Shown here: positions 1,577 through 6,007 of the stretch, piece by piece
How positions within the stretch are numbered: the first letter of the stretch is position 1
Layout of the letters: each line of letters begins with the position of its first letter
Assembly (NCBI GenBank): GCA_001898095.1
Contig: MKSH01000064.1
Location: 646-10,701 of the forward strand
Direction: 5' to 3'
Source of the DNA: Solirubrobacterales bacterium 70-9
GTDB taxonomy: Bacteria; Actinomycetota; Thermoleophilia; Solirubrobacterales; 70-9
Length of the DNA stretch: 10,056 nt
Notes under the pieces: generated by a model
What the model was told of the DNA's origin: nothing
The model's database searches: none
Seen by the model: the letters and a program-made list of their open reading frames with translations, nothing else
Program-made: the position numbers and the translations under genes

Positions 1577-3613
1577 ATGCTGCTCGGGGTAGACGTCGGC
1601 GGGACCTTCACCGACGCGGTCCTGCTCGACGACGGGGCGGTGCACACGGCGAAGGTGCCGACCACGCCGGGGGAGGAGTCGAAGGGGGTGATGGCGGCGA
1701 TCGAGGCCGTCATCGCGGAGGCGGCCGCCGATCCCGCCGACGTCGAGCTCTTCTCGCACGGGATGACGGTGGGGACGAACGCGCTGCTGGAGGAACGCGG
1801 GGCGCGCACGGCGCTGATCGCCACCCGCGGCTTCGCCGACCTGCTCGAGATCGCCCGCCAGGACCGGCCCAGCCTCTACCACCTCTGCGCGCCGAAGCCG
1901 ACGCCGCTGATCGCCCCGGAGCTGAAGTTCGAGGCGGCCGAGCGGACCGGTCCGGAGGGGATCGTCGAGCCGCTGGCCGCGGGCGAGCCGGAGCGCCTCG
2001 CCGCGGCGCTCGCCGACGCGGGCGCCGAGTCGGTCGCCATCTGCCTCCTCTTCAGCTACCTCGACCCGACCCACGAGTGCCGGCTCGCCGAGTTCCTCCG
2101 CGAGCGCCTCCCCGACCTCCACGTCTCCGCCTCGCACGAGGTGCTGCCGCGCTTCCGCGAGTACGAGCGCGCCTCGACCACGGCGATCGACGCCTACCTC
2201 TCCCCCTTGCTCGGCCGCTATCTCGGCCGGCTCACCGAGGCGACCGCGGCGGCGGGCCTGCCGGCGCCGCAGGTGATGCTCTCCTCCGGCGGCGTCGCCC
2301 CGGCCGGCGAGGCGGCGCGGGCCGGGGCCTGGAGCGTCCTCTCCGGCCCGGCGGGAGGCGCGGTCGGCGCCGGGCTCCTCGCCCGCCTCTCCGGCGACGG
2401 CAACGCGCTCGGCTTCGACATGGGCGGGACCAGCTGCGACGTCTGCGTGGTCGAGGACGGCGCCGTCCGCCGCACCGACTCGCGCTCGATCGACGGCCGC
2501 CCGATCCAGCTGCCCACGGTCGACGTCCACACCGTCGGCGCGGGCGGCGGCTCGATCGGCTGGCGCGACCAGGGCGGCGCGCTGCGGGTCGGCCCGCGCT
2601 CGGCGGGAGCCGTCCCCGGGCCCGCCTGTTACGGGCGCGGCGGCGCCGAGCCGACGGTCACCGACGCCAACCTCCTGCTCGGCAACCTCGCCGCCGACTC
2701 GACCCTGGCCGGCGGCGTCGCGCTCGACGCCGAGGCGGCCGAGCGGGCGGTCGGCGCGCTGGCGAAGGAGCTCGGGCTCGACCCGCTGGACACCGCCGCC
2801 GGGATCGTCCGCGTCGCCAACCAGGAGATGGTGCGGGCGCTCCGCGTGGTCACGGTCGAGCGCGGCGTCGACCCGCGCCGCTTCGCCCTCCTCCCCTTCG
2901 GCGGCGCCGGCCCGATGCACGCCGCCGCGATCGCCGCCGAGCTCGGCATCGACCGCCTCCTCTGCCCCCGCGCCGGCGGCGTCCTCTCCGCCTTCGGCCT
3001 CTGCGCCTCCGACCGCCGCCGCGACACCGCCCGCACGGTGATGCTGAGCGGCGACGACCTCACCGCCGAGCGCATCGCCGCCGCCGTCTCCGACCTCCGC
3101 AACTCGGTTGACGGGCCGAAAAGCGCTGATATAGAGCGCTTTTCGGCCCGTCAACAGCGAGGCCTCGCGGAGGCCCGGGCCGAGGTGGTCTACGGGATGC
3201 GCTACGCCGGTCAGGCTTTCGAGCTCCCCGTCCCCGGCGATCCCGATCCCGACCCCGCCGACCTGATCGCCGGCTTCGAGGAGGCCCACGAAGACCGCTA
3301 CGGCCATCGCGATCCCGACGGCTCCGTCGTCCTGGTCGACATCCGCCTCGCCCTCGTCATCGACGGCCCCGAACCGCGCCCGGCCGCCGCAGGCGACGGC
3401 ACCCTCGAAGAGTCCTCGCGCAATGTCCGCTTCGATGACGAATGGGTCGAGACGCCCGTCCTCCGAGGCGACCCCGAAGCCGGCCGCACCGCCGCGGGTC
3501 CCGTCGTCTTCGAGCTCCCCGAGGCCACCCTCGTCCTCCCGCCCAGCTGGAGCGCGGAAGTGGACGAGTTCGGGACGATCACCGCCGCGCGCTCGCCCCC
3601 GGAGGCCAGATGA
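1577..3613 (+). CDS. hyuA: Hydantoinase/oxoprolinase family protein, subunit A (HyuA)
   Basis: ATP-binding subunit of the HyuA/HyuB group, which includes N-methylhydantoinase, 5-oxoprolinase and acetone carboxylase relatives; the A subunit activates a cyclic amide or carbonyl substrate with ATP. The N-terminal domain begins with the ASKHA phosphate-binding signature GVDVGGTFTD (residues 4-13). The second half of the fold shows SGPAGGAVGA near 256, GFDMGGTSCDV near 279, GAGGGSI and LLPFGGAGPMHA. A C-terminal beta-rich domain (VVYGMRYAGQAFELPVPG onward) follows. The 678-residue length is usual for the family. The gene starts 10 bases after nadB with only a weak GGGAG about 13 bases upstream, and overlaps hyuB by ATGA, so coupling with hyuB is likely. 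Residues 511-527 are encoded by a perfect palindrome that looks inserted. The substrate cannot be told from sequence. Confidence 0.9.
   Translation: MLLGVDVGGTFTDAVLLDDGAVHTAKVPTTPGEESKGVMAAIEAVIAEAAADPADVELFSHGMTVGTNALLEERGARTALIATRGFADLLEIARQDRPSLYHLCAPKPTPLIAPELKFEAAERTGPEGIVEPLAAGEPERLAAALADAGAESVAICLLFSYLDPTHECRLAEFLRERLPDLHVSASHEVLPRFREYERASTTAIDAYLSPLLGRYLGRLTEATAAAGLPAPQVMLSSGGVAPAGEAARAGAWSVLSGPAGGAVGAGLLARLSGDGNALGFDMGGTSCDVCVVEDGAVRRTDSRSIDGRPIQLPTVDVHTVGAGGGSIGWRDQGGALRVGPRSAGAVPGPACYGRGGAEPTVTDANLLLGNLAADSTLAGGVALDAEAAERAVGALAKELGLDPLDTAAGIVRVANQEMVRALRVVTVERGVDPRRFALLPFGGAGPMHAAAIAAELGIDRLLCPRAGGVLSAFGLCASDRRRDTARTVMLSGDDLTAERIAAAVSDLRNSVDGPKSADIERFSARQQRGLAEARAEVVYGMRYAGQAFELPVPGDPDPDPADLIAGFEEAHEDRYGHRDPDGSVVLVDIRLALVIDGPEPRPAAAGDGTLEESSRNVRFDDEWVETPVLRGDPEAGRTAAGPVVFELPEATLVLPPSWSAEVDEFGTITAARSPPEAR
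3107..3155. repeat. 49-bp perfect palindrome embedded in hyuA
   Basis: Left arm 3107-3127 and right arm 3135-3155 are exact reverse complements over 21 bases, separated by the loop GATATAG. The left arm starts on a codon boundary and the element is read through in frame as VDGPKSADIERFSARQ. It lies between the nucleotide-binding core and the C-terminal beta domain, where the family has a variable linker. It is richer in A/T than the flanks. Such a stem would also form a strong mRNA hairpin. An insertion origin is inferred from the symmetry, composition and position; the symmetry itself is read directly. Confidence 0.9.
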
Positions 3614-5955: not shown

Positions 5956-5983
5956 TTTGAAGAACCGCTTCGGGTACTAGTCT
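5956..5983 (+). promoter_or_regulatory. Putative promoter giving a leaderless transcript
   Basis: TTTGAA (5956-5961) and TAGTCT (5978-5983) are spaced 16 bases apart. The -10 ends six bases before ATG 5990, the distance expected when transcription starts at the start codon. No Shine-Dalgarno sequence precedes the ATG, which fits leaderless expression. The -10 overlaps the inverted repeat at 5979-6007. Confidence 0.35.
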
Positions 5984-6007
5984 CGACCCATGTCCTGGGT
6001 CGAGACT
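5979..6007. repeat. Perfect 11-bp inverted repeat around a start codon
   Basis: AGTCTCGACCC (5979-5989) and its exact reverse complement GGGTCGAGACT (5997-6007) flank a 7-base loop ATGTCCT that contains the start codon at 5990. The position over the -10 and start codon suits a repressor operator or an mRNA hairpin exposing the ATG in its loop. Confidence 0.8.

Follow-up and report, generated by a model that had tools for sequence, protein, structure and literature searches.

We find that the 49-bp palindrome lying in frame within the hyuA gene of the window (the whole stretch of 10,056 nucleotides analyzed here, from Solirubrobacterales bacterium 70-9) is a member of a REP/RPE-like family, which differs from those kinds by its length of 49 bp and by a conserved outer part enclosing a changing inner part, and which is found here in one genus only. 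At sites that are shared between species, the inner hairpin goes with the genome and not with the site. The reading we favor, at a probability of roughly 0.55, is that of a REP/RPE-like element, with no RAYT detected, whose sites are old and whose copies are overwritten in place, combined with a correction of one arm by the other.

The palindrome in hyuA is exact, as the initial annotation had claimed. Its two 21-base arms, GTTGACGGGCCGAAAAGCGCT (3107-3127) and AGCGCTTTTCGGCCCGTCAAC (3135-3155), are perfect reverse complements of each other and enclose the 7-base loop GATATAG (3128-3134). The reading frame of hyuA was also said to stay open through the palindrome, and it does, the element being translated as VDGPKSADIERFSARQ (Table 1). 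The identity of the host gene is given by two Pfam domains (Hydant_A_N, 3.8e-48; Hydantoinase_A, 4.5e-89).

Table 1. Coordinates of the palindrome, its parts and its host gene in the window.
Feature	Position	Strand	Remark
Perfect palindromic element (outer arms and inner hairpin), in frame in hyuA	3107..3155	.	81 genomic copies with at most 3 mismatches of the core
Outer arm GTTGACGGGCCGAAAA	3107..3122	+	Subtypes and species agree here, apart mainly from positions 3 and 6, which are T or C
Inner stem GCGCT	3123..3127	+	Type of this part tracks the genome
Loop GATATAG	3128..3134	+	
Inner stem AGCGC	3135..3139	+	
Outer arm TTTTCGGCCCGTCAAC	3140..3155	+	
Host gene hyuA (hydantoinase/oxoprolinase A), 678 aa including the insert	1577..3613	+	

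The 49-mer folded alone as RNA reaches -41.9 kcal/mol, where shuffled sequences average -12.2 (z = -11.3), and as DNA -28.3 (z = -11.2). So strong a hairpin would suit an ordinary intrinsic terminator, but no terminator (stem plus T tract) is called between 2900 and 3400 and the frame is open, with hyuB downstream. A terminator was therefore rejected, as was a chance palindrome in view of the copies described below, and there is next to no likelihood left for either. No Rfam family matches anywhere in the window at the gathering threshold. Another perfect palindrome, smaller than the 49-mer and built of 12-bp arms around a 5-nt loop, lies at 5979-6007 of the window, across the start of the open reading frame (ORF) listed at 5990. 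The initial annotation had placed the inserted residues in a surface linker. An AlphaFold2 model of HyuA (16 sequences, mean pLDDT 83.6) makes this plausible in that residues 514-528, which make up most of the insert, connect the helix at 497-511 to the strand at 534-543, but this stretch is itself modeled at low confidence (pLDDT < 50). Within hyuA the element probably rides along as neutral cargo.

A 21-bp inverted repeat in coding DNA had been called far beyond chance, and a search for second copies in the genome and its relatives had been proposed. With a 37-mer core query (30 specified bases, at most 3 mismatches) we find 81 matches in the genome of the window (G000; 4.2 Mb, 278 contigs, 84% complete) and none with the reversed core, which served as control. 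The same search in 101 genomes, G000 included, is positive in five, all within the genus (81, 22, 6, 3, and 1 copies). We compared 12 genomes of this genus, all of them drafts (78-100% complete), using a relaxed exact pattern in which only GGGCCGAAAA...TTTTCGGCCC is fixed. The family is then found in seven of the 12 (G006: 91; G000: 65; G007: 60; G003: 42; G008: 36; G009: 29; G011: 1) and the other five have none. By identical hyuA sequences, G007 is SZAS-10, G006 is SZAS-9, G009 is SZAS-14, G008 is SZAS-15, and G003 is RYN_247. In a class-wide draw of 399 genomes, which happened to omit G003 and G008, the family occurs in five, again all in this genus. The six element-rich genomes measure 3.8-4.7 Mb and the remaining six of the genus 2.4-3.4 Mb. 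The sole match in the viral_contigs collection (L206:41-77) is situated close to the end of a 49.5-kb contig, with another inverted repeat after it; our guess is that this contig is possibly host DNA and not of viral origin. In a literature search, which was not exhaustive and is no proof of absence from print, we found no published description of the 49-mer family.

Palindromes abound around these copies. In approximately 743 kb of loci, which were fetched for holding elements, there are 235 palindromes with perfect arms of at least 15 bases; 120 of the loci shuffled by mononucleotide contain none. A second family, GTCCYGGGCGYCTC...GAGRCGCCCRGGAC with a loop near ACAGCCTGCC, is represented on the contig of the window, outside the window itself (G000:C64:17880-17939). 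It is confined to the same six element-rich genomes (G006: 150; G000: 66; G009: 53; G007: 28; G003: 16; G008: 8) and has no match in the remaining six genomes of the genus. Among the matches listed, its middle stems are apparently genome-specific, with GGAGGCG or [CT]GGCGG forms in G000 and ATGGCGCTC in G006.

Where do the copies sit? We examined 54 of the 81 copies in G000, namely those supplied by match listings and fetched loci, with genes called by a simple codon-usage caller trained on five genes of the window. Twelve lie inside ORFs in frame, seven over ORF ends, and 35 between genes; by hand count, 20 of the 35 separate tandem genes, 12 convergent and two divergent genes, with one left unassigned. 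The hosts of the in-frame copies are HyuA, a biotin-dependent carboxylase, a GlcE-like protein, a glycosyltransferase ORF with a GpgS domain, a QcrA-like Rieske protein, a LeuRS-like protein, a GT87 protein, a DnaE-type polymerase, PabAB, MurE, PurQ, and a GH15 protein, although several of these identities fall short of the curated NCBIfam cut-off. The set includes several genes that are usually essential. Neither the 12 in-gene copies nor the hyuA copy of G007 contains an internal stop, and the frame used is VDGPK in ten of the 12 and LMGRK in two. Copies within genes would persist where an insertion is tolerated, as their arms read V-D-G-P-K-(S/T)...F-S-A-H/R-Q without a stop. About a dozen copies in G000 are embedded in a larger repeat of roughly 370-380 bp, which consists of three different palindromes in fixed order with the 49-mer in the center (full copies include L017 1360-1739 and L023 1361-1728).

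The anatomy of the family was studied in 158 full-length copies from six genomes. The family has conserved outer arms, GTYGAYGGGCCGAAAA/TTTTCGGCCCRTCRAC (16 nt each), around a 17-nt inner hairpin; arm positions 7-16 are fixed by the search pattern and are thus uninformative on conservation. Despite varying bases, positions 17-21 pair with positions 29-33 in 119 to 151 of the 158 copies. The arms are perfect over 21 bp in 40 of 54 copies in G000, 18 of 29 in G006, four of 28 in G007, four of 26 in G009, and in none of the 13 in G003 or the eight in G008. When arms are re-paired among copies of one genome, mismatches increase in all six genomes and exceed the observed number in 500 of 500 shuffles (for example, from 0.31 to 0.66 in G000 and from 1.77 to 3.66 in G009). 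The near-perfect arms point to maintenance or turnover.

We label the inner hairpins by type: alpha (GCGCT-GATATAG-AGCGC), b (CCCGTC-AGATA-GTCCGG), c (CTCAAG-n5-CTTGAG), and others. G000 has alpha, with an identical 17-mer in 45 of 54 copies, and G007 has mostly a CCGCT form of alpha. The hairpins of G006 are of type c, many copies having the common stem CTCAAG/CTTGAG and a variable loop. G009, G008, and G003 hold mixtures, which in G009 comprise b, c, and alpha-like forms. At a shared site in the DnaE-type gene, the loop stands in opposite orientation. Might these be selected sites, at which a trans-acting factor maintains the hairpins as binding sites or RNA elements, its specificity having changed in each species so that all sites changed together? 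The G006 copies, which often keep their stem while the loop varies, would agree with this, and so would the REP-like preponderance of convergent over divergent settings among intergenic copies. However, several types coexist in one genome (G009), the loop in G000 is homogenized along with the stem even though pairing does not need it, and a binding-site role hardly accounts for copies in the LeuRS-like, MurE, and PurQ genes. We consider this explanation improbable.

An alignment of HyuA orthologs had been suggested, on the view that an insert shared at the same site by distant orthologs would speak against a mobile element. The segment is absent in seven of the nine compared orthologs of the genus and present in G000 and G007, the latter being the only one of eight relatives to share it. 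Neither this adverse outcome nor the other one named there, the lack of a second copy in any related genome, was thus observed. The initial annotation read the palindrome as a mobile or recently inserted element and its perfect arms as a sign of recent arrival or active maintenance. A dispersed element is confirmed and maintenance or turnover is favored by the re-pairing of arms, but recent arrival at hyuA is not borne out, because the sister G007 carries an element there too, one whose arms show paired differences. Relative to the usual empty length, hyuA is longer by 45 nt in G000 and 63 nt in G007, and MurE exceeds most empty relatives by 45 or 48 nt, the flanks being too diverged to fix the exact length of an insertion. 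The hyuA gene of G003 holds another palindrome in frame in its 3' part (L075:4751-4821; 21-bp arms, 29-nt loop), and similarly built palindromes stand at or just beyond the 3' end of hyuA in G003, G007, and G009.

Three other genes illustrate how content changes from species to species. PurQ, which was picked without knowledge of the state in relatives, contains alpha in G000, c in G006, b in G007, and a degenerate palindrome in G011 (49 nt, 16 of 21 pairs), with none in the other eight of 12 genomes; in G001 this gene has an extra stretch of unrecognized kind. MurE, whose sharing with G009 was known beforehand, contains alpha in G000, c in G009, and b in G008, with none in the other eight of the 11 genomes in which the gene was found. 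A second site in PabAB (L152:2097-2133; orthologs in L203, L119, and L052) holds c in G006 and decaying copies in G009 (type c) and G007 (type b); the G000 palindrome at this site, also 49 nt long, has 15 of 21 pairs and a largely different arm sequence. Presence conflicts with the tree: the element is in PurQ of G006 and not of its sister G008, in MurE of G008 and not of G006, and in hyuA of G007 and not of G009. Losses or repeated gains are therefore needed on this tree, in which G006 and G008 are joined with a support of 97 and the other key nodes have 42-60.

A count by physical copy gives 33 pairs of copies that occupy the same site, over 22 sites. The number of shared sites is biased upwards, since the loci of relatives were fetched for carrying an element, and five of the 33 pairs are loosely mapped (unaligned gap > 150 bases). 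At four sites (L052/L203, L053/L193, L168/L187, L128/L197) the flanks align without gaps to both edges of the 49-mer at 85-89% identity, and the inner hairpins differ. Over the 33 pairs the mean inner distance is 8.82 of 17 positions, and random draws of copies from the same two genomes give 9.09. Taking a single pair per site makes both values 9.55, and the 28 pairs whose unaligned gap does not exceed 150 bases give 9.18, with 9.02 for the random draw. Six or more inner differences are seen in 24 of the 33 pairs; the nine closer pairs are mostly alpha with alpha-like, also b with b. The nearest other copies in the two own genomes lie at mean inner distances of 0.58 and 1.18, and the distance to the site partner exceeds both in 31 of the 33 pairs. 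The random draw is the fair control here, because a comparison with the nearest of many favors small values. Variants in the outer arms agree at shared sites in 89 of 132 cases, compared with 81.5 at random (301 of 2,000 simulations as high), and inner bases in 227 of 561, compared with 205.1 (272 of 2,000 as high), neither being a clear excess. With no clear inheritance by site of either kind of variant, exchange of the center only and replacement of the whole element are equally possible.

We read the sites as old because degenerate palindromes stand at shared sites, and their contents as replaced because the contents go with the genome. Many sites would predate the split of the species, and newer types would then spread within each genome as they supplant older copies in place, either by copying of short tracts or by re-use of the same site. 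The idea that REP sequences evolve by gene conversion is reportedly an older one, going by the title of a 1988 paper by Higgins cited in PMC3116915. Within a single copy, template switching between the arms would keep the palindrome near perfect and could flip the loop. It would explain the near-perfect arms and the opposite loop at the DnaE-type site, and not the spread between loci. It is tempting to go further and to suppose that "alleles" sharing their arms compete for old hairpin sites by a homing-like rewriting in place without a dedicated transposase, so that the peptides in PurQ, MurE, and PabAB would be rewritten species by species and in concert; we offer this extension tentatively, as less probable than the general reading.

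The chief rival to overwriting is repeated insertion at the same sites. A transposase that escaped detection would put each subtype into a limited set of targets, and sister species would be hit separately at the same base with no overwriting. The conflict of presence patterns with the (weak) tree fits this explanation, and so do empty orthologous sites (hyuA in seven genomes, the sites of L049 in G007 and of L036 in G008, and a second L044 site in G009). There is also a weak common flank pattern, CGAT or CCA adjoining the arms, which is unpaired across the element and amounts to at most 0.56 bits per position; such a pattern, however, looks too weak to select the same base in megabases of DNA. 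Nor are marks of insertion clear: when the borders of 143 copies were scanned at offsets of 0-4 for direct repeats 2-5 bases long, as expected of target duplications, no clear excess over shuffles emerged, the closest being length 3 at offset 4 (three observed, 1.2 expected, reached by 37 of 300 shuffles). The Y1 transposase domain of RAYTs (Y1_Tnp, PF01797) is found in none of the 12 draft genomes of the genus, with a positive control that matched five of 14 named genomes, and mobilization by a RAYT was rejected on this result. We further took the loci of 160 elements and compared their 634 predicted ORFs all against all, considering clusters present in at least five loci. No dedicated gene recurring beside the copies was seen among the eight clusters that span at least five loci, which we take by eye to be common paralog families. 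Together with the degenerate palindromes at shared sites, which point to old occupancy, these results make independent insertion rather unlikely in our view. A DDE-type MITE, a short element derived from an insertion sequence and keeping its terminal inverted repeats, would likewise be small and dispersed with perfectly inverted ends, but in the same tests there is no clear excess of border repeats and no partner gene was seen to recur among the clusters of at least five loci, and we give it very little weight.

If overwriting in place is true, peptides within housekeeping enzymes are rewritten from outside the mutation history of the gene itself. The clade lends itself to a direct count of gain, loss, and overwriting, since it offers many copies, at least two families, shared sites, and distinguishable types.

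Several known systems resemble the 49-mer in part. Template switching is described as homogenizing the arms of a hairpin and inverting its spacer (PMC8604942; PMC8794818), and in the features covered by these accounts the 49-mer has the same near-perfect arms, paired changes, and loop inversion. Template switching acts within one hairpin, however, and does not alone explain homogeneity across dispersed sites. REPINs, or GTAG REPs, are likewise built from two inverted conserved 16-mers around a less conserved, pairable spacer and form populations within a genome, according to the part of their description used here (PMC3116915). They accompany RAYTs (PMC3116915; PMC8049555, on the same footing). 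Unlike them, the 49-mer belongs to a genus in whose 12 genomes Y1_Tnp has no match, shows no GTAG end in the flank tallies, and has in-frame copies in housekeeping genes. It resembles CGTC REPs, which, as far as the sections of PMC3733652 drawn on here describe them, are short palindromes of several phyla with no dedicated transposase, for the most part downstream of genes and in some cases intragenic. By the same account these have an unpaired CGTC end, stems of 8-9 bp, and loops of 4-5 nt, whereas the 49-mer has 21-bp arms and no conserved unpaired tag; no flank tag of the CGTC kind was found, no flank position exceeding 0.56 bits. RPE-4 and RPE-6 of Rickettsia are counted among the CGTC REPs, which seem to lack a transposase (PMC3733652, in the same sections).

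The likeness to Rickettsia palindromic elements had been raised in the initial annotation. It holds for a palindrome dispersed in frame in unrelated genes with the frame kept (the 12 of 54 copies in G000 and the hyuA copy in G007), for several families per genome, and for orthologs with inserts at the same locus (here hyuA, PurQ, MurE, and PabAB). Membership in an RPE family does not follow, for RPEs are described, in the portion of PMC3767692 relied on here, as 100-150 bp long. Judged by that description and not by sequence, the 49-mer also stands apart in its 21-bp arms, its conserved outer and changing inner part, and its high-GC actinobacterial host. The change of type at one site has a precedent, because different groups of RPE are reported from the same or nearly the same position in Rickettsia orthologs, RPE-4 in one and RPE-6 or RPE-7 in another (PMC3767692, same portion). 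The 49-mer works like the RPE, CGTC REP, and REPIN kinds but fails tested defining features of each, and the protein-coding palindromes of Rickettsia are the nearest known kind.
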